A stretch of 64,000 bases of DNA from Mycobacterium sp. EPa45 (GTDB lineage Bacteria > Actinomycetota > Actinomycetes > Mycobacteriales > Mycobacteriaceae): the NCBI RefSeq assembly GCF_001021385.1, contig NZ_CP011773.1, forward strand, positions 5,332,001-5,396,000. The letters are read 5' to 3'. The first letter of the stretch is position 1, and the number at the start of each line of letters is the position of its first letter. The notes under the pieces were generated by a model. That model had not been told where the DNA came from and did no database searches. It was given only the letters and a program-made list of their open reading frames with translations. This document shows positions 1,566 to 31,222 of the stretch, one piece after another. Made by a program: the position numbers and the translations under genes.

Positions 1566-2600
1566 CTACGATATTGCCGCGTTTTCCGCCGGGCATGCGT
1601 CGCCCAAGTAATGAATTCCCTTGTCACGCTCCGCCTCTGGCGGCAGATTCCGCGGCGGGGTGTGAACCAGCGGGCTGTCGAGCGGAATTCGCCCGGTGGC
1701 CCGGTCCCAACCCCCACGAGCGCGCGGGTGCATCCGGCGACGCTTGGGCAACGTCTTGAACGCCAAATTCACCATTCGGCCGAACAGCCAATGCAGTCGC
1801 TCGTCTCGCTTGGACCATGTGTAGCCCATCAGGTCGCGGACCGGCTGATCGTAGAGACCGACCGTGACCCACACCGCGAAGGGGCCGAACGCCTTGAGAT
1901 ACGCCGACCACAGGAAATCTGGAATCCATTGCAGTGAAGGATGTTTCGGCATTGTCGATAGGTCAAGCACCTCACGGGTAGCCCAGTTGTTCTCCAACAC
2001 GTTGCGGCACATATGGTCCCAGTAGGCTTGAAAATCCTCCCAGCTGGCCGGCACCGGCCGCATGCTCATGCCATACATTCGGTACCACGTGACGTGCTCG
2101 TCGAACAGCTGGCGCTTCTGGTCCTCGGTGAGGCCGTCCCCGAAGTGCTCGGCGGTCAGGATGGTGCCCATGAAGAACGTCGCGTGCGCCCAATAGAAGA
2201 CGTCGGGATTCAACGCGCTGTAGCGACGGCCTTGGGCGTCAACACCTTTGATCGGGATGTGGTAGTCGCGCACTTCCGCTCCGGTCATGGGCGCCCGATC
2301 ACCGTCGAACACCACCCCGCCGATCGGGTAGAGCGAGCGCAACAAGCGCGGTAGGCGCTCCATGAAGAAGATCGAGTGCTCCTCGACAGCGGCGCCGAGT
2401 TGGGGATGCATATTCTGCATCGAGCCGGCCCACGGCCCCTGCAGCAGTCCGCGCCAGTCGCCGAAATACTTCCACGTCAGCGAATCAGGACCGAGCGCCG
2501 CGGGCGGCCCGGAATACCCTCCGTCCGTCACCGGGCAGCCGGCTGCCGCCTGCGCGCCCTCGCTGGTGACGGGGCACGTTGGGGACGTATCTTGACTCAA
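1566..2600 (-). CDS. MpaB/DUF2236-family oxygenase
   Basis: A 344-aa protein of the ER-bound oxygenase MpaB/latex-clearing-protein family (DUF2236), common in several copies in mycobacteria. Characteristic parts are the early LTWKYFGDWRGLLQGPWAG segment, HPQLGAAVEEHSIFF, the FYWAHATFFMGTI helix (residues about 134-147, with a candidate haem/metal-ligand His), and DEHVTWYRMYGM. Family members bind haem b and are thought to oxygenate hydrophobic substrates; the substrate here is unknown. The first 30 residues are low-complexity with two CPVT repeats. A TetR gene is transcribed divergently 70 bp away and is the obvious candidate regulator. Confidence 0.85.
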   Translation of the reverse strand: MSQDTSPTCPVTSEGAQAAAGCPVTDGGYSGPPAALGPDSLTWKYFGDWRGLLQGPWAGSMQNMHPQLGAAVEEHSIFFMERLPRLLRSLYPIGGVVFDGDRAPMTGAEVRDYHIPIKGVDAQGRRYSALNPDVFYWAHATFFMGTILTAEHFGDGLTEDQKRQLFDEHVTWYRMYGMSMRPVPASWEDFQAYWDHMCRNVLENNWATREVLDLSTMPKHPSLQWIPDFLWSAYLKAFGPFAVWVTVGLYDQPVRDLMGYTWSKRDERLHWLFGRMVNLAFKTLPKRRRMHPRARGGWDRATGRIPLDSPLVHTPPRNLPPEAERDKGIHYLGDACPAENAAIS

Positions 2601-2609
2601 CTGGTGACC

Positions 2610-2619
2610 TTCCCGGGAA
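2610..2619. promoter_or_regulatory. Perfect 10-bp palindrome between mpaB-like gene and tetR
   Basis: TTCCCGGGAA lies in the 70-bp divergent intergenic region, just upstream of the oxygenase start at 2600. Its position would suit an operator for the neighbouring TetR protein. It is short and in GC-rich DNA, so chance is possible. Confidence 0.25.
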
Positions 2620-2670
2620 ACGCCGTGGCATTTTGACTACATGCGTTGTCACCAAGAGCTTAGGAGGGAT

Positions 2671-3267
2671 GTGACGTCGGGTCAACGACGGGGCCGCTGG
2701 TCCGGCGTTCCGCTGCCGGACCGCCAGGTGCTGCGCCGCGACGAATTGATCGCCGCCGGTGTCACGCTGCTCGGCAGCCCCGACGGCCCGGCGCTGACGG
2801 TACGAGCCGTCTGCCGTGAAGCCGGCCTCACCGAGCGGTACTTCTACGAGAGCTTCCCCGACCGGGACGAGTTCGTCCGGGCGGTCTACGACGATGTCTG
2901 CACTCGCGCCATGACGGCGCTGATGTCCGCCGCGACCCCTCGCGACGCGGTCGAACAGTTCGTGGCCCTGATGGTCGACGATCCAGTGCGAGGACGCGTG
3001 CTACTGCTGGCGCCGCAGGTCGAGGCCGTGCTGATCCACTCCGGCGCCGAGTGGATGCCGAGCTTCATCGAACTGCTGCAAAGCAAGCTGACCGCGATCA
3101 GTGATCCGATGCTGCAGAAGATGATGGCCACCGGGCTGATCGGAGCTCTGACCGCACTGTTCACCGCCTATCTGGATGGCCGGTTAACGCCGTCGCGGGA
3201 CCAGTTCATCGACTATTGCGTCGACCTCCTGCTGGCCCGGGCCGCGGGTTATCCGCCGGCGACCTGA
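2671..3267 (+). CDS. TetR-family transcriptional regulator
   Basis: A DNA-binding helix-turn-helix sits near the N-terminus (LTVRAVCREAGLTERYFYESF, the typical TetR recognition helix ending in Y-F-x-x-F), followed by an all-helical ligand-binding domain with no clear family signature. I chose GTG 2671, with AGGAGG only 3 nt upstream; ATG 2641 in the same frame would add 10 residues and lacks a ribosome site. It is divergent from the MpaB-like oxygenase and probably regulates it and itself. Its 3' end overlaps the convergent PASTA-like gene by 19 bp. Confidence 0.85.
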   Translation: MTSGQRRGRWSGVPLPDRQVLRRDELIAAGVTLLGSPDGPALTVRAVCREAGLTERYFYESFPDRDEFVRAVYDDVCTRAMTALMSAATPRDAVEQFVALMVDDPVRGRVLLLAPQVEAVLIHSGAEWMPSFIELLQSKLTAISDPMLQKMMATGLIGALTALFTAYLDGRLTPSRDQFIDYCVDLLLARAAGYPPAT

Positions 3268-3719
3268 CCCGCCTCGCCCGGAACATTGCCGGTCTGCTCG
3301 AGTTCGCTGGCCTGGCTCTGCTGCGCTTCAGCCTGGGCCTGAGCCAGTTTCTCCTCGTAATCGGAGCGTGCAGCGCGACCTTCCGGGCTGCCCATCGAAT
3401 TACCCGGCACGCCGGCCGTCGCGAAGGTGTTGTTGCAGTTCAGGTACAACAGAATCCGGTTGCCGGGGTTGGTACCGCTGGAGTCGAGAAAATCGGCACT
3501 GCGCGATCCGGTGACGACGCATTGGTCGGTCGGCAGGAAGCTGCCGACTCGGGTGGCGATGGTCGCCGACTGGCCGGCCTGGCTGATCTTCTGCGATGCG
3601 TCGGCGTACGTCATGCCGGCGTATTCATTGATCGCGAAGGCGGTGCCGGAGCCGAACACCACAACCGATGCCGCCGTTGCGGCCACGCCGCCGATGCCGA
3701 GGACCAGGTAGTTCTTCAT
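3249..3719 (-). CDS. Secreted PASTA-like protein
   Basis: 156 aa. A clear signal peptide (residues 1 to about 28, hydrophobic core followed by GTAFA) suggests export. The mature part reads GMTYADASQKISQAGQSAT..., then a Cys-containing strand and NRILLYLNCN. This resembles the single PASTA-like fold in small mycobacterial secreted proteins: a Y/A-D-A start, a helix with I/L, and two cysteines that may form a disulphide. The C-terminal third (residues about 115-156) is Gln/Ala/Glu-rich and probably disordered. Function is unknown; PASTA domains usually bind peptidoglycan or muropeptides, but a single domain does not prove that. Confidence 0.7.
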   Translation of the reverse strand: MKNYLVLGIGGVAATAASVVVFGSGTAFAINEYAGMTYADASQKISQAGQSATIATRVGSFLPTDQCVVTGSRSADFLDSSGTNPGNRILLYLNCNNTFATAGVPGNSMGSPEGRAARSDYEEKLAQAQAEAQQSQASELEQTGNVPGEAGQVAGG

Positions 3720-3933: not shown

Positions 3934-4929
3934 ATGTCGCAAGACCTGACCGACCTCGAACTTTTGCACGAGCTGGAACCGGTGGCGGAGAAGCTCATCA
4001 ACCGCCACATCACGATGATGAAAGACTGGAATCCGCACGACTACATCCCGTGGTCGGATGGCAAGAACTTCTACGCCCTCGGCGGCCAGGACTGGGATCC
4101 CGAGCAGTCCAAGCTCTCCGAGGTCGCCCGCACGGCGATGGTGCAGAACCTTCTCACCGAGGACAACCTCCCGGCATATCACCGCGAGATCGCGATGAAC
4201 TTCTCGATGGACGGCCCCTGGGGGTACTGGGTCAACCGGTGGACCGCCGAGGAGAACCGGCACGGCATCTCCATCCGCGACTACCTGGTGGTCACCCGCA
4301 ACTGCGATCCCGTGGAGCTCGAAGAGCTGCGGATGGAGCAGATGACCCGTGGCTTCTCGCCAGGGCAGAACCAGCAGGGCGATCTGTTCGCCGAGAGCCT
4401 GTTCGACTCGGTCATGTACGTCAGCTTCCAGGAGCTGGCCACCCGGGTGTCGCACCGCAACACCGGAAAGGCGTGCAACGACCCCGTCGCCGAGCAGCTG
4501 CTGGCCCGGATCTCGAACGACGAGAACCTGCACATGATCTTCTACCGCGACGTCAGCGAGGCCGGCTTCGACGTGGCCCCCAACCAGGCGATGAAGTCGC
4601 TGCACCGGGTGCTGCGCAACTTCAAGATGCCCGGATACACGGTGCCGGACTTCCGCCGCAAGGCCGTCATCATCGCCATGGGCGGCGTGTATGACCTGCG
4701 TATCCACCTCGACGACGTCGTGATGCCGGTGCTCAAGAAGTGGCGCATCTTCGAGCGCGACGACTTCACCGGCGAAGCGGCCGCGATGCGCGATGATCTT
4801 GCGAACCTGATCACCGAGATCGAAGAGGCCTGCGACAAGTTCGAAGAGTCCAAGGCGCGCAAGCTCGAACGGGACGCGCGCCTGGCCGAGAAGCGCAGCG
4901 CCAAGGCATTGGCAGGGGCGGCGACATAG
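3934..4929 (+). CDS. desA1: Acyl-ACP desaturase DesA1
   Basis: 331 aa, closely resembling M. tuberculosis DesA1 (Rv0824c) as I remember it, for example WNPHDYIPWSDGKN, GGQDWDP, TEDNLPSYHRE-like and DENLHMIFYRDV. It is a soluble ferritin-fold di-iron desaturase. The metal ligands come from EDNLPAYH (residues about 68-75), EENRHG (two-residue-spaced E/H pair) and DENLHMIFY. DesA1 acts on acyl-ACP in mycolic acid synthesis. The basic C-terminal tail (KARKLERDARLAEKRSAKAL) is a family trait. In M. tuberculosis an antisense RNA (ASdes) overlaps this gene. The dihydrouridine synthase follows immediately, probably translationally coupled. Confidence 0.95.
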   Translation: MSQDLTDLELLHELEPVAEKLINRHITMMKDWNPHDYIPWSDGKNFYALGGQDWDPEQSKLSEVARTAMVQNLLTEDNLPAYHREIAMNFSMDGPWGYWVNRWTAEENRHGISIRDYLVVTRNCDPVELEELRMEQMTRGFSPGQNQQGDLFAESLFDSVMYVSFQELATRVSHRNTGKACNDPVAEQLLARISNDENLHMIFYRDVSEAGFDVAPNQAMKSLHRVLRNFKMPGYTVPDFRRKAVIIAMGGVYDLRIHLDDVVMPVLKKWRIFERDDFTGEAAAMRDDLANLITEIEEACDKFEESKARKLERDARLAEKRSAKALAGAAT

Positions 4930-15222: not shown

Positions 15223-16020
15223 GTGCGAAAGCTGCTGATCACTCTGGGTGCCACGCTGCTCACCGTGGTCGTCGGGGCGGTCGGCGTCGATTTCGGGGCG
15301 ACGATCTACGCCGAGTACCGGCTGGCCCGTACTGTCCGCAGCGCCGCGGGACTCTCCTTCGACCCGTCGGTGGCGATCCTGGGCTTTCCCTTCATCCGCC
15401 AGGCCATGCAGCACCACTTCGACGAGATCGAGATCAAGGCCAATGGGGTGAGCCACCAGGTGGTCGGCAAGGCCTCGCTGGAAGCCACCCTGCACAATGT
15501 CGACCTCACCGAGGCTTCGTGGCTGATCCGCCCTGGTGCGAATCTGCCGGTCAGCAAGCTCGAGAGCCGCATCATCATCGAGTCCGGCCACCTGGGCCGA
15601 TTCATCGGAATCAACGATCTGATGGTGGAGGCCCCGTCGAAGGAGACCAACGACGCCACCGGCGGCACCACCGAGTCGGGCATCTCCGGCAGCAAGGGCC
15701 TGGTGTTCACCGGCACGCCGAAGAAGGCCGGCTTCGACAAGTCGGTCAGCGTCGCCGTCGACCTGTCCGTGTCCGGCCCCGACCAAACCACGCTGGTCTT
15801 CACGGCCACCGACGTCCAGACCGGGCCGGGCACCGCTGACCAGGCCGTACCCGAGGACAAGAAGGCGGCGGTGCTGGCGGCGTTCAGCGGCAGCCTGCCC
15901 GGCCAGAAACTGCCGTTCGGGGTGCGCCCGACCACCGAAGGCGCCCGGGGGTCGGACATCATCATCGAAGGAATCACCGAGGGAGTAACCATCCGCCTCG
16001 ACGGGTTTATCCAGACATGA
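15223..16020 (+). CDS. lmeA: LmeA-type phospholipid-binding protein (DUF2993)
   Basis: Resembles mycobacterial LmeA (Rv0817c/MSMEG_5785), a periplasmic phospholipid-binding protein needed for lipomannan elongation and MptA maintenance. The N-terminal hydrophobic segment (KLLITLGATLLTVVVGAVGVDF) acts as signal or anchor. The rest is beta-rich, with VAILGFPFIRQAMQHHFDEIEI and a final GVTIRLDGF strand typical of DUF2993. GTG 15223 puts the hydrophobic segment at the start; ATG 15205 and GTG 15178 in the same frame add 6 or 15 residues. The stop overlaps the thioredoxin start (ATGA). Confidence 0.85.
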   Translation: MRKLLITLGATLLTVVVGAVGVDFGATIYAEYRLARTVRSAAGLSFDPSVAILGFPFIRQAMQHHFDEIEIKANGVSHQVVGKASLEATLHNVDLTEASWLIRPGANLPVSKLESRIIIESGHLGRFIGINDLMVEAPSKETNDATGGTTESGISGSKGLVFTGTPKKAGFDKSVSVAVDLSVSGPDQTTLVFTATDVQTGPGTADQAVPEDKKAAVLAAFSGSLPGQKLPFGVRPTTEGARGSDIIIEGITEGVTIRLDGFIQT

Positions 16021-28165: not shown

Positions 28166-28591
28166 ATGGCTTTCAAACCGCACGAAATCGAGTACCTGAA
28201 GTCGGCGGCCCTGGGCCGGCTGGCCACCATCCAGCCGAACGGCACGCTGCAGAACAATCCCGTCGGCTTCTCCTACAACGATGAGCTCGGCACCATCGAC
28301 GTCGTCGGCTACCACATGTCCAAGAGCCGCAAGTTCCGCAATCTGACCAATAACAACACCGTCGCGTTCGTGGTCGACGACATCGCCTCGCGCAACCCGT
28401 GGCGAGTGCGCTGTCTGGAGATCCGCGGCACCGCCGAGCAGGCCGAAGTCGAGGCGCCCGGCCAGGGCATCGACAGCGCGATCATCCGGATCACGCCCAA
28501 ACGGATCATCAGCTTCGGCATCGACGACACCGAAACCGAGCCGCACGAGTTGGTACCGGACAGTCGCGACGTGCCGACGACGGCGGACTAG
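28166..28591 (+). CDS. PPOX-class F420-dependent oxidoreductase
   Basis: 141 aa from ATG 28166. Split beta-barrel flavin/F420-binding protein: LGRLATIQPNGTLQNNPVGF, SKSRKFRNLTNNN (phosphate contacts), VAFVVDDIASRNPWRVRCLEIRG and RITPKRIISFGID fit the TIGR04023-like subgroup of actinobacterial PPOX proteins. Probably reduces an unknown substrate with F420H2. It is followed by the accessory M50/S74 region. Confidence 0.85.
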   Translation: MAFKPHEIEYLKSAALGRLATIQPNGTLQNNPVGFSYNDELGTIDVVGYHMSKSRKFRNLTNNNTVAFVVDDIASRNPWRVRCLEIRGTAEQAEVEAPGQGIDSAIIRITPKRIISFGIDDTETEPHELVPDSRDVPTTAD

Positions 28592-28607
28592 CGCTTTTGG
28601 TAACTCA

Positions 28608-28649
28608 AGGGAAAACCCGGTATCGGCCTGGTCTGCACGTTTTTAGTCT
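28608..28649 (+). promoter_or_regulatory. Promoter P1 of the small-peptide/M50 operon
   Basis: AGGGAAAACCC (28608-28618), one base, GTATCG (28620-28625), 18 nt, then TAGTCT (28644-28649), a TAnnnT-type -10 box. The same arrangement with identical spacing occurs on the minus strand at 30646-30605. GGGAAAACCC is an inverted repeat (GGG-N4-CCC) just upstream of the -35 position, as expected for an activator site. Confidence 0.65.
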
Positions 28650-28693
28650 CAGGGTGGCAATGATGTGTGGTCAACGCCGGAGGGGACCGAGCG

Positions 28694-28750
28694 GTGCGAG
28701 AGCTGGACGAGAACTTCGCCCCCGACGTGGGGCGGATCGGCCGTGGTTAG
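28694..28750 (+). CDS. Very short peptide ORF (18 aa), possible precursor peptide
   Basis: GTG 28694 to TAG 28750 encodes MRELDENFAPDVGRIGRG (reading GTG as Met). GGAGGGG (28679-28685) sits 8 nt upstream, one of the strongest ribosome sites in the window. The last eight bases overlap the start of the M50 metalloprotease (GTG 28743), so translation is probably coupled. An acidic N-terminal half and a Gly/Arg C-terminus would fit a tiny leader-plus-core peptide cut by the protease; it could also be a regulatory leader. No family recognised. Confidence 0.5.
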   Translation: MRELDENFAPDVGRIGRG

Positions 28751-29888
28751 GCTCGACCCGCACGCCTCTTGGCGTCTGAGCAAGCGGGGGCTGTTGTTGG
28801 CGGGAGGCAACGGCGACACCGTCCTCCTGGAACACCCGCGGGCCGGCGAGCTGCCCGCGATCCTGGCTGACGACCCCGATCCCGCCCAGCTCGAGCATCG
28901 ACTGGGGCCGCCGACGCACCCCGGGCTCGTCCCGGAACTCATTTCCCGGGGAATGCTGACCGATGGTTCGGTGACGGCAACACGATCCGATACGGACGGG
29001 GCAGCATCGCGTTGGTCGGTGACCCGGTCGGGGTTGATGATCGGCGGCGTGGAGCGGCCTGCACGCTGGCTGGATCGCCATCTGCTGCCGCTGCTGCTTC
29101 ACCCGGTCGGCCGGGTCGTTGTGGTGGCGATCATCGTAGGTGGTGTGGCGGCATTGCTGGCCGGGAGACCAGACGTGCCGGCAGCCAGTGACCAGCCTGT
29201 CGTCGAGGTGCTTGCGATGATCGTGATCGGCTTGGCGGCAACTGCCTGTCACGAACTCGGTCACGCGGTCGCCTTGGTGCACTACGGCCGGACGCCCCGT
29301 CGAGCCGGTTTCGGATTCTATTGGGGCGCAGTCTCTTTCTTCGTCGACTCCACTCCGGCTCTCACCCTGCACCGGAGTGCTCGCGTCGTCCAGGCCTTGG
29401 CAGGTCTGATGGTGGACACGGTCACGACCGCGTTGTTCGCGATCGCGGCCCAGCTGACCTCCAGCACTCTGTGGGCAATTGTGTTCTGGCGCTTAGCGAT
29501 TCTGGCGATATTGGACATGTTGATCAACCTGGCCCCGATATTGCAGGTCGATGGTCATTGGGCGCTGGCCGACTGGCTCGACGAGCCTGATCTGGCGACG
29601 CGATCACGTGCCGCATTGGGTGCGGCGCTGGGCGGGCGGATGGGCCCGGGCCGGGGCTGGCTCGCCGCGTACGGCGCAGTCAGCCTGGTGGCGGGCGCAG
29701 GGTTGCTCGCCGTACTCATCACAGTGTTCTGGGACAACGCCGGGGCGCTGGTGGTGAATCTGTTCTCAGGCGGGGTGGCGGAGATCGTCCTCGGCCTTTA
29801 CTACATCGCGCCGGTGACGCTGGGCATCCTGTTCAGTGCTGCCGGACTGCTGCTGGAGACGGTGATTCCGATGTCACGGCAGCCCTGA
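28743..29888 (+). CDS. M50-type membrane zinc metalloprotease with RRE/PqqD-like N-terminus
   Basis: 381 aa from GTG 28743. Residues about 1-75 (LDPHASWRLSKRGLLLAGG... LVPELISRGMLTD) look like a small winged-helix domain of the PqqD/RiPP-recognition type. They are followed by a linker and about six membrane helices. The zinc motif HELGH is at residues 170-174 (ATACHELGHAVAL), and the second M50 motif NLAPILQVDGHW puts the third ligand at Asp270. Similar proteases mature or export ribosomal peptides (YydH-like). The function and the domain call at the N-terminus are inference; the protease motifs are directly visible. Its end overlaps the convergent S74-like gene by 56 bp. Confidence 0.8.
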   Translation: MVRLDPHASWRLSKRGLLLAGGNGDTVLLEHPRAGELPAILADDPDPAQLEHRLGPPTHPGLVPELISRGMLTDGSVTATRSDTDGAASRWSVTRSGLMIGGVERPARWLDRHLLPLLLHPVGRVVVVAIIVGGVAALLAGRPDVPAASDQPVVEVLAMIVIGLAATACHELGHAVALVHYGRTPRRAGFGFYWGAVSFFVDSTPALTLHRSARVVQALAGLMVDTVTTALFAIAAQLTSSTLWAIVFWRLAILAILDMLINLAPILQVDGHWALADWLDEPDLATRSRAALGAALGGRMGPGRGWLAAYGAVSLVAGAGLLAVLITVFWDNAGALVVNLFSGGVAEIVLGLYYIAPVTLGILFSAAGLLLETVIPMSRQP

Positions 29889-30294
29889 TCGGCTCTGCGC
29901 CGACAATCCGGCCGAGCTGATCTTCGAGTTCCGATACCCGTCGGGTCAGCGCTTGCAGGGCGGCCATCACCACACCGTTGGCGTCGACGAGGTTGATCCG
30001 GCGATCGTTGTCTCCGAGGCCGAACGCCGCTGCGAAATCTTGTGCCATCGGCCCAAGGTGGCGAACGGAGTCATGGTCGTAGCCATAGGTCCACACGCTG
30101 ATCGGCAGCTGGGTCAGCCGATCGAGGATCTCCTGGGCGCTGACGGGGACCTCCACACCGGCGGCGACTCCCCGTTGGCGGCGGATGACGCGTGCGGCCC
30201 ATGCCTGCGGATGTCGGATCAGCGCTTGCGCCTTGGCGCGACGGCGAGTTGGGCTGTCAGCCCAGTTCGTCGGCGCCTGAGGGGATTCGGTCAT
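29833..30294 (-). CDS. S74-domain-like (tail-fibre chaperone-like) protein
   Basis: 153 aa. Residues about 50-135 resemble the peptidase S74 intramolecular chaperone of phage tail spikes: ILDRLTQLPISVWTYGYD, RHLGPMAQDFAAAFGLGDND (the conserved G-x-x-AQ-D/E-F segment), INLVDANGVVMAALQAL, and a C-terminal coiled coil TRRVSELEDQLGRIV. The usual opening SDxxxKxxI, where S74 proteins self-cleave, is missing; a basic N-terminal stretch is there instead. That motif appears twice in the small ORF just upstream. No phage genes are nearby. Function unknown. Confidence 0.75.
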   Translation of the reverse strand: MTESPQAPTNWADSPTRRRAKAQALIRHPQAWAARVIRRQRGVAAGVEVPVSAQEILDRLTQLPISVWTYGYDHDSVRHLGPMAQDFAAAFGLGDNDRRINLVDANGVVMAALQALTRRVSELEDQLGRIVGAEPIRAAVTSESPSPAAVRQH

Positions 30295-30329
30295 TGGTTA
30301 CGATCCTCTCCTACTTCCAGCAGCGAAGG

Positions 30330-30376
30330 GTGTGCGGTGTGCTGCCCGGTCACGGCCGGGGCAGCACACCGCACAC
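30330..30376. terminator. Long hairpin between the repeat peptide and the S74-like gene
   Basis: A 20-nt arm (30330-30349) pairs with 30356-30376 (one bulged G, 6-nt loop). It starts 7 nt after the repeat-peptide stop on the minus strand and ends 35 nt before the S74-like start. On the minus strand it has no T-tract, so partial termination or mRNA protection is likely. This would give more message for the small peptide than for the gene after it. Confidence 0.65.
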
Positions 30377-30382
30377 TGCTTT

Positions 30383-30526
30383 TCAGATCAGCGGTACCAC
30401 GGCGTGCTTGATCGATACGTCGCTGCGCGACGAAAACGCGCGGCTGAGCCGGCGCACATCGTGCTTGATCGACGCGTCGCTACGCGACGAAAGCGCCCGG
30501 CTGAGACGAGTCAGGATCCTGATCAT
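30383..30526 (-). CDS. Repeat peptide (47 aa) with two SDxSIKH units
   Basis: ATG 30526 to TGA 30383. A very strong ribosome site, AGGGGGTGAT, ends 4 nt upstream. The peptide is two 19-residue repeats (residues 7-25 and 26-44), 15 of 19 positions identical, each reading RLSRA(L/F)SSRSD(A/V)SIKH. It is Ser/Arg-rich, with no Cys. SDxSIKHDV resembles the SDxxxKxxI opening motif of S74 chaperone domains, which the next gene lacks. It may be a complementing strand, a substrate, or a secreted peptide. Its promoter matches that of the facing M50 operon. It is too short to appear in routine gene calls. Confidence 0.65.
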   Translation of the reverse strand: MIRILTRLSRALSSRSDASIKHDVRRLSRAFSSRSDVSIKHAVVPLI

Positions 30527-30604
30527 GGAATCACCCCCTTTGAAAACTCGAGACCTACCTGCTGCGGGAAGCGCCGACTGTTCGACGACCGTCCCCCGAA
30601 TTCG

Positions 30605-30646
30605 ACACTAGGAGCGGGTGACTGCCTGCGATACAGGGTTTTCCCT
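30605..30646 (-). promoter_or_regulatory. Promoter P2 of the repeat-peptide/S74 operon
   Basis: On the minus strand: AGGGAAAACCC (30646-30636), one base, GTATCG (30634-30629), 18 nt, then TAGTGT (30610-30605). Seventeen of 18 bases of the upstream block equal P1, and the spacing to the -10 box is identical. It lies just beyond the stop of the CPBP gene and about 80 nt before the peptide ATG. Confidence 0.65.
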
Positions 30647-30670
30647 GGCTTTCCGGACGACGACCGCGGA

Positions 30671-31222
30671 CTAGCGTCGCTGCACCACCATCGCCGCCAC
30701 CGCGGCGGACTCGTTGAACCCGACATGGGCGAGCGTCGGGGCCAGCACACTGCCCGACCGTTTGGCGAGCCAGCCGAACACCCATCCCGCCACGCCGGTC
30801 ACCAGCACGGTGCCCAGCACCGGATCGCCGACCCTCCTCGCGTCGGGGATATGCCAGAGCCCGAAGGCGGCCGCCTGCAGCAGTGGGCCGGCGGTCGGAC
30901 CGAGGGCACGCACGGCGAGGGTCTGCAGCGCGCCCCGAAACAGCATCTCTTCGGTCCAGGCCGTCGCGACCGGGATCTCCAGCACCAGCCAACGGACCGG
31001 ATGCGCTGGTACCCGACGGTCGTTCATCCCGCGGCGCACCCGGGGCACCGCGGCTGTCAGCGCCGCGATCGCCGTGGCCGCCACCCCGGCGGCCACACCA
31101 CCGGTGCGCAGCCCCGACCACAACTGAGGCGGCCGCAAGCCCAGCGATGTACCGACGGCGACCGCCAATCCGGTACTGACGATTGCGCGCACGGCCGGGG
31201 TGCCAGAGTCCTTGGTGATCAT
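30671..31222 (-). CDS. CPBP-family intramembrane protease (Rv0804-like)
   Basis: 183 aa from ATG 31222, which overlaps the hydrolase stop (ATGA). CAAX-protease/bacteriocin-processing family: the motif EEMLFRGALQTLAVR (paired catalytic Glu and Arg), then FGLWHIPDAR (His) and HVGFNESAA (His-x3-Asn). Several membrane helices. Such proteases process prenylated proteins in eukaryotes and are immunity or processing factors in bacteria. It is third in the purL operon order, immediately upstream of the repeat-peptide promoter. Confidence 0.85.
   Translation of the reverse strand: MITKDSGTPAVRAIVSTGLAVAVGTSLGLRPPQLWSGLRTGGVAAGVAATAIAALTAAVPRVRRGMNDRRVPAHPVRWLVLEIPVATAWTEEMLFRGALQTLAVRALGPTAGPLLQAAAFGLWHIPDARRVGDPVLGTVLVTGVAGWVFGWLAKRSGSVLAPTLAHVGFNESAAVAAMVVQRR

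Follow-up and report, generated by a model that had tools for sequence, protein, structure and literature searches.

The S74, or ICA, domain is a standard example of a self-cutting intramolecular chaperone. Here we describe what appears to be a natural split form of this domain, found in a 64,000-nucleotide stretch of DNA from Mycobacterium sp. EPa45 (bases 5332001-5396000 of a genome that forms a single contig of 6.18 Mb; 'the window' means this whole stretch). A small S74-like protein of the window has neither the Ser-Lys dyad nor the cleavage site of the family, and a repeat peptide encoded next to it carries both, twice, in short segments that we call tags. The two genes share with that of an M50 protease a block that, judging from related genomes, is a discrete insertion. 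We think it probable, at roughly 0.6, that this insertion is a peptide-maturation module built on a split S74 self-cleaving domain, in which the S74 protein would act as a cutter in trans and the protease, predicted to begin with an RRE domain, would handle the products. The parts concerned with the split are the following, in window coordinates.

29833-30294, minus strand: dyad-less S74 protein of 153 residues, the putative cutter; its alignment to Pfam S74 begins only at position 13 of the 58 in the profile.
30022-30141, minus strand: S74 homology (residues 52-91), with W68 and Y70 at the positions of MYRF Y615 and Y617.
30383-30526, minus strand: tandem peptide of 47 residues, MIRILTRLSRALSSR/SDASIKHDVRRLSRAFSSR/SDVSIKHAVVPLI, from the translated open reading frame (ORF) and its repeats.
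30464-30481, minus strand: first S74 tag, SDASIK, with the cut predicted before Ser; the dyad is assigned by likeness to MYRF and endoNF.
30407-30424, minus strand: second S74 tag, SDVSIK, assigned by its motif.
30330-30376, minus strand: perfect inverted repeat of 18 base pairs (bp) between the peptide and S74 genes; M. xanthum has one of 15 bp in the same place.

Pfam model PF13884 matches the S74 protein at E 3.9e-5 (24.3 bits, cut-off 22), which places it in the family; the model also matches 25 of the 26 members of alignment A1 at E 0.01. W68 and Y70 are invariant among these 26 proteins, and what the window protein retains of the domain is its 'cutting hole', with the aromatic residues, and the helix at the C-terminus. 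In the S74 proteins characterized in PMC8326128, a Ser-x4-Lys pair (S587/K592 in MYRF, S911/K916 in endoNF) directs a cut just before the Ser, and Y615 and Y617 of MYRF lie near the cut site. The polypeptide from the window has no such dyad, and the start of the profile that it leaves uncovered is the piece which bears pair and cut site in endosialidase and MYRF; the pair is found on the neighbouring peptide instead. The preliminary description of this DNA had seen no class known to its author into which the S74 partner would fit; it missed that the half of the domain absent from the partner is supplied by the repeat peptide. The peptide is built of a 15-residue cationic amphipathic unit followed by tags of the form SDxxIKHxV (in full, SDASIKHDV and SDVSIKHAV), with a second cationic stretch between them; its gene, behind the ribosome site AAAGGGGGTGA, includes two 54-nucleotide repeat copies at a spacing of 57 nucleotides, and its M. 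xanthum counterpart has three tags. PMC8326128 also describes a 'cable' of MYRF that holds the cut site and threads the neighbouring subunit, so that placing cable and cutter on separate chains would need no new geometry. PMC3742443, PMC3828593 and PMC9774167 were also drawn on in the analysis. Many split S74 proteins have a basic stretch, HPxAW...RRRGV, ahead of the domain (about residues 27-42 in the window, A1). The inverted repeat behind the peptide gene possibly sets the ratio of peptide to partner; it is long only in the window and M. xanthum, measures 13 bp in L004, and no perfect arm of at least 8 bp was found within 130 nucleotides after the peptide in 17 of 30 loci.

The division of the domain recurs. 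From 75 loci of named genomes, the 29 best (L002-L030, all actinobacterial) were examined first, along with the window. In all 30 loci, a small ORF led by a ribosome site and containing SDxxxK lies at most 500 bp upstream of a dyad-less S74 ORF; this motif is present in 31 of the 38 small ORFs of that upstream zone, as compared to none of 430 elsewhere in the same loci. The search for S74 relatives found 342 proteins, and among the 120 listed, 118 have the core motif, none of these 118 with a dyad within 70 residues upstream; only proteins of 0.55-1.75 times the query length were taken, which excluded long fused ones. Small peptides retrieved with a profile number 57, with SDxxxK in 56 and SNxxxK in one, and in 52 of them precisely 14 residues make up the stretch that runs from the last Ser to the C-terminus; this set is not an independent sample, since the profile was itself built on such peptides. 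Ser and Lys are also invariant in the 16 rows of alignment A3.

Elsewhere the domain is usually continuous. Motif and core share one ORF in 102 of 108 other loci (46 from named genomes, 5 unnamed and 57 viral); the six exceptions are three split loci (L079-L081), one without a core match (L073), one at a contig end (L132), and one with Cys in place of Ser (L123). The viral core of L123 reads VCDRNAK near position 4094 and is possibly a Cys variant of the dyad. Several loci in these sets are duplicates (L165 and L080 of L030, L079 of L028, L078 and L188 of L002). Among 55 fused proteins, 53 have W at S+28, and in 45 this W is accompanied by Y at S+30, the spacing of MYRF Y615/Y617. The flanks of the split loci have diverged: among ORFs of at least 100 residues in 26 loci (L002-L027), only the S74 ORF itself (26 loci) and ORFs overlapping it in other frames (18 and 12) recur in more than seven. 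Across large genome sets, S74 relatives were found in 2 of 297 and 6 of 396 genomes (the latter including the fused L082 and L083), and M50 relatives in 7 of 297, 23 of 396 and 6 of 397, counts that may be low because only 10-13 S74 or 4-6 M50 candidates per genome were scored.

The two halves also appear to fit each other. Nine peptides taken alone gave no match to the Pfam S74 model. When tag and partner were joined, with the residues by which they overlap trimmed, and scored with a profile built from 55 fused S74 domains, the joined sequence gained 7.1-17.7 bits (median 11.1) over the S74 half in all 19 loci tried, of the 31 that are split. The trimmed join outscored every other window of the same peptide (those within 6 residues of a tag were omitted), and none of 1900 shuffles scored as high. 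The motif itself accounts for some of the gain, since the tags were picked by SDxxxK, which the profile also holds.

The third gene of the block is that of the M50 protein.

28743-29888, plus strand: putative RRE-site-2 protease of 381 residues; residues 1-77 have an RRE-like fold and residues from about 95 to 381 a site-2 protease (S2P)/SpoIVFB-like fold, with HELGH and NLAPxxxxDG.

The two metalloprotease motifs are at 29250-29264 (HELGH) and 29526-29555 (NLAPILQVDG). A structure model (predicted local distance difference test, pLDDT, 89.6) found nothing with Foldseek at E 0.001, and a sequence search of PDB gave nothing useful; in a second look, VIA structure matches of the model recovered both the RRE fold at the N-terminus and the S2P fold with HExxH and NxxPxxxxDG. 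As modelled, the M50 protein thus joins an N-terminal RRE domain to a site-2 protease, the arrangement known from daptide clusters, and the PqqD/RRE-like start that had been proposed from the letters agrees with this. NCBIfam daptide_HExxH matches the protein at E 3.5e-36, with 125.2 bits, below its cut-off of 300, and the model of the epipeptide (LiaK family) protease matches at E 1.4e-9, likewise below cut-off. Protein searches also turned up, in Mycobacterium sp. RTGN5, counterparts of the window's repeat peptide (47 residues, 89% identity) and M50 protein (79% identity), encoded on contigs of equal stated length.

The M50 gene stands beside the S74 gene in four loci, namely the window, M. 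xanthum (L002), and two metagenome-assembled genomes (MAGs), of Acidimicrobiales (L029) and of Actinomycetes (L030); only 3 of the 75 fetched S74 loci hold an M50 relative, and most split S74 loci have none. Complete searches of 18 genomes of the L002-L030 set found an M50 match (E 0.001) in four, M. xanthum, L029, L030 and L011, the last one weak (E 3.9e-4). The kind of peptide varies in step. Loci L003-L028 (Rhodococcus, its relatives and one Euzebyaceae MAG) encode hydrophobic, often Gly-rich peptides that end in the tag, with no M50 gene nearby, and mean hydropathy before the Ser exceeds 1 in 52 of the 57 retrieved tagged peptides. Cationic tagged peptides are found in the window, M. xanthum, L029 (two, with several tags), L030 (two) and L081 (three, Lys-rich). 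An M50 gene is adjacent in 4 of these 5 cationic loci and in 0 of 26 hydrophobic ones (Fisher P 1.6e-4, the loci being not all phylogenetically independent). In L081, positions 1522-2740 (also within L187), a dyad-less S74 ORF is followed by three tandem Lys-rich, histone-H1-like peptides that end in YSDRNLKSAI.P..ARNVLDQL or a close form, and then by a small ORF whose product is similar to the C-terminal region of S74. The L030 genome has a second M50 protein (L088 796-2472, minus strand), divergent to three small precursor-like ORFs (within 2500-3297, plus strand) that share a stretch of ELEALAGEELPERA type, and this looks like another peptide cluster.

Eight further M50 loci (L179-L186) have neither S74 nor tag, and each has one to four tiny cationic ORFs at most 600 bp upstream, 13 in total; the pattern is absent from the 62 other tiny ORFs of the same loci and from 264 in L002-L027. 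These free-standing ORFs of 15-20 residues, such as MIRRLSRLSRAARVGR, are similar in length and style to MIRILTRLSRALSSR, the first fragment predicted for the window peptide, and they share the orientation of the M50 gene in all eight loci. Those of L183 and L186 start with TTG and GTG, and the M50 match of L181, which is in two pieces in different frames, was counted once. L182 and L183 differ in 3 of 16 codons, 2 of them silently, and their flank is 92% identical, so that the pair is of no help as a coding test. Since S74-less loci encode peptides of the same style directly as ORFs of 15-20 residues, the S74 tag looks like an added step of processing or control.

The same tiny ORFs admit another interpretation, in which the M50 protein would not mature the peptides but serve immunity or clearance, destroying the cell's own membrane-active peptides, so that peptide and protease form a toxin-antidote-like pair. 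Membrane disruption is a plausible activity for tiny cationic amphipathic peptides, the shared orientation in 8 of 8 S74-less loci would suit such a pair, and both operons of the window begin with the same operator-like site (see below). We regard this as unlikely, though deserving of attention, because RRE-like domains usually bring precursor peptides to processing enzymes. An RRE-site-2 protease fusion, moreover, marked the daptide biosynthesis clusters in PMC10036551, and no PADLOC family matches any of the three window proteins, a result on which antiphage defence was rejected as well.

The two operons share their upstream signal, as the preliminary description had noticed in speaking of one promoter design.

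28608-28625, plus strand: operator-like palindrome AGGGAAAACCCGGTATCG before the M50 operon, an exact match to AGGGAAAACCCNGTATCG.
30629-30646, minus strand: operator-like palindrome AGGGAAAACCCTGTATCG before the peptide-S74 operon, an exact match to AGGGAAAACCCNGTATCG.

At up to three mismatches, the 18-bp AGGGAAAACCCNGTATCG has 3 matches in the window against 0.05 expected, the third being at 15374-15391 with two mismatches. With the looser pattern AGGGWWWWCCCNGTATCG, and up to one mismatch allowed, the 6.18-Mb genome yields five sites, against none for the pattern read backwards. The three sites outside the block are of AGGGAAATCCCTGTATCG type (G000:C1:51889, 100977 and 772032; L205-L207); the genes behind them have products that begin with a VGRxGxLAVALGxG-type segment and look secreted by eye, and one of these genes is divergent to one for an AAA_16 ATPase protein, before the C-terminus of which the fetched stretch ends. 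Similar palindromes precede both M. xanthum operons and the peptide arrays of L180 and L181; none was seen in L179 or L182-L186. The neighbourhood of the M50 gene in L180, L181 and L188 includes a related large ORF, whose product in M. xanthum is an AAA_16-LuxR protein. The site resembles CTVGGGAWWTCCCBAG, given in the literature as the motif of PAS-LuxR regulators, and a putative regulator would bind the operator-like sites.

These sites raise the question of whether the peptides are signals or surface-assembly factors within a LuxR-controlled cell-envelope regulon, and not antimicrobials. The secreted-looking genes behind the other three genomic sites, the AAA_16 genes in their vicinity and near L180, L181 and L188, and the PAS-LuxR-like motif are all in keeping with that; on the other side, the binding regulator is itself only deduced, and six S74-less loci showed no such site. 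On balance we doubt this explanation.

The sequences and models establish the anatomy of the block, the split with its recurrence, the match between the halves, the two folds of the protease, the common operator-like sites and the insertion; the working scheme that follows goes beyond them. On the reading that we favour, that of a maturation module on a split S74 domain, both operons would be expressed under common control. The S74 protein would trimerize and capture the tag as the 'cable' of its domain; the Ser and Lys of the tag itself would then cut the bond before the Ser, the S74 partner completing the active sites, and cationic peptides of 15-19 residues would be released. The RRE domain of the M50 protein would bind these, and its site-2 protease part might trim them, export them or pass them on, or remove them at the membrane. 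Their end use is the weakest step: most likely they are membrane-active secreted peptides, with defence, signalling and envelope assembly all candidates. A broader formulation, about which we are more tentative and for which the odds seem to us a little short of even, is that of a natural split autoprotease: the catalytic Ser-Lys pair would come with each substrate, on its short tag, and an 'apo-cutter' protein would provide in trans what the active site still lacks. In this form, it would serve actinobacteria for the release or assembly of small peptides of several unrelated kinds (cationic tandem units, Lys-rich peptides and Gly-rich membrane peptides), and in one branch it would have been added to an unnoticed family of cationic peptides of 15-20 residues handled by the RRE-site-2 protease.

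Cutting need not be part of the story. The S74 protein might be only a trimerizing chaperone or receptor for peptides with SDxxIK tails, keeping three of them together in a pore, a ladder or a storage complex; S74/ICA domains trimerize their clients besides cutting them (PMC8326128), and the high hydropathy of 52 of the 57 peptides suits oligomerization in the membrane. Against this, the Ser and Lys of the cutting pair are retained in all 57 peptides of the profile-gathered set and in every row of A3, and the N-terminal fragments predicted to result from cutting resemble, in length and style, the free-standing peptides of S74-less loci; we consider the purely chaperone-like role rather improbable. 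That the S74 gene is a decayed fragment of a phage tail fibre and the peptide motif a coincidence or leftover is very improbable and was rejected. In its favour, phage fibres typically have S74 domains, and fused S74 is found on viral contigs; on the other side, the split pair recurs in 30 of 30 loci with diverged flanks and a nearly fixed tail length, the profile is completed once the halves are joined in each of the 19 loci tried, and 102 of 108 other loci are fused.

Several observations weigh against the interpretation that we prefer. Most split S74 loci lack the M50 gene and carry hydrophobic peptides, for which reason one peptide function cannot cover them all, and in L081 the tagged peptides are Lys-rich and the M50 relative is on another contig. 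Fused S74 proteins are also actinobacterial (L064, L068, L071, L082, L083), so that the phylum as a whole does not follow the split arrangement. The pattern defining the tiny ORFs was fixed after the first examples had been seen, and 22 more distant and mostly larger M50 relatives (L147-L168) have no MIRR-type tiny ORFs. A first, untrimmed joining of the halves gave small gains that shuffles often matched or beat, a weakness due to the overlap of tag and partner by a few residues; an earlier run of the trimmed test had 10 of 19 loci passing the pattern, with a shuffle beating the join in L014. Finally, the model that AlphaFold2 gave for the S74 protein as a monomer is poor and lacks strands (predicted template modelling score, pTM, 0.52), and this model had no useful PDB match, with Foldseek giving nothing at E 0.001; a PDB search by sequence was equally unproductive, and comparison with viral models produced six weak matches (E 0.014-0.07), two of them named S74.

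The block is 2.08 kb long and lies between a PPOX-class gene (end 28591) and an Rv0804-like protease gene (end 30671), whose products match the PPOX and CPBP profiles; these flanking genes and the nearest relatives are in keeping with the genus Mycobacterium.

28575-28593, plus strand: left copy of a 19-bp direct repeat, overlapping the PPOX stop; found by repeat search, and aligning with the right copy to one place in L190 and L191.
30658-30676, plus strand: right copy of the same repeat, overlapping the end of the Rv0804-like gene; found by repeat search and by the L190/L191 alignment.
28694-28750, plus strand: ORF of 18 residues, with GGAGG ahead of its GTG; not conserved and probably not a part of the system.

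In L190, L191 and L192, PPOX and Rv0804-like genes are adjacent, with protein matches 5-11 nucleotides apart, and the junction sequence, single in L190 and L191, is doubled in the window (the copies being 95% identical); relative to these genomes the block is therefore a discrete insertion. Rv0804-like matches were found in 11 other genomes, and in the five where the fetched stretches resolved the neighbour, it was PPOX in three and Rv0807-like in two (L195 and L197). Within the block the two operons converge: the M50 gene is read rightwards, the repeat peptide and then the S74-like gene leftwards, and the M50 and S74-like genes overlap tail to tail by 56 bp (29833-29888).

These genes, the motifs of the M50 protein, the overlap of genes facing each other, the repeat peptide and the common upstream site are as they were first described, and the block was rightly taken for a compact peptide system with an RRE-like domain and a site-2 protease. 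The part that falls away is the ORF of 18 residues, which had been paired with the repeat peptide as a second small ORF in front of a larger accessory gene. The repeat peptide does recur with its tag; the frame matching the 18-residue ORF has no start codon in M. xanthum, its words are absent from all six frames of L179-L188, and it was rejected as a conserved peptide. The tiny ORFs that recur before M50 genes differ from it. Its end, DVGRIGRG, recalls by eye the VGRIG start of proteins behind the other operator-like sites, and it may be a remnant of a gene of that type.

Each protein family involved is known. With the S74/ICA domains of endosialidase, phage fibres and MYRF, the system shares family PF13884, the aromatics of the cutting hole, the Ser-x4-Lys pair in its cut-site context and the C-terminal helix; described members are one chain, whereas here a small peptide of its own bears the pair and the cut site, in some cases in tandem copies, and what remains of the domain is a free protein. 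As in daptide clusters, an RRE domain opens a site-2 protease encoded beside one or several small peptides. Daptides, however, according to PMC10036551, have an ELExMEAP leader, a C-terminal Thr and modifying enzymes nearby; the peptides here have neither leader nor Thr and are tagged or only 15-20 residues long, the insertion has no genes for modifying enzymes, and the score of 125 is well under the equivalog cut-off of 300, so that the M50 protein does not qualify as a daptide protease. The YydF/YydH epipeptide system likewise combines an M50 relative (LiaK family protease) with a small peptide, but the insertion has no radical SAM or ABC exporter gene, and its peptide is dissimilar by eye to the epipeptide. 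Split inteins are similar in that a self-processing domain is divided between two genes and works after association; they differ in fold and chemistry, and here one would expect cutting, not splicing, with one half being a repeated tag. In the open-access literature searched, no title or abstract opening names a split S74 system or these peptides, although they may already have been published; two elements did not appear there, an S74 domain divided so that one part is a peptide tag and the other a protein of its own, and the family of tiny ORFs next to RRE-protease genes.

If our reading is correct, S74 chemistry becomes a trans-acting and possibly reusable peptide processor with a ready-made cleavable tag, and the split makes it directly testable whether the cable and the cutter of the ICA trimer work as separate molecules. 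ORFs of 15-20 residues are shorter than gene finders usually report, and a family of actinobacterial peptides may therefore have been missed.

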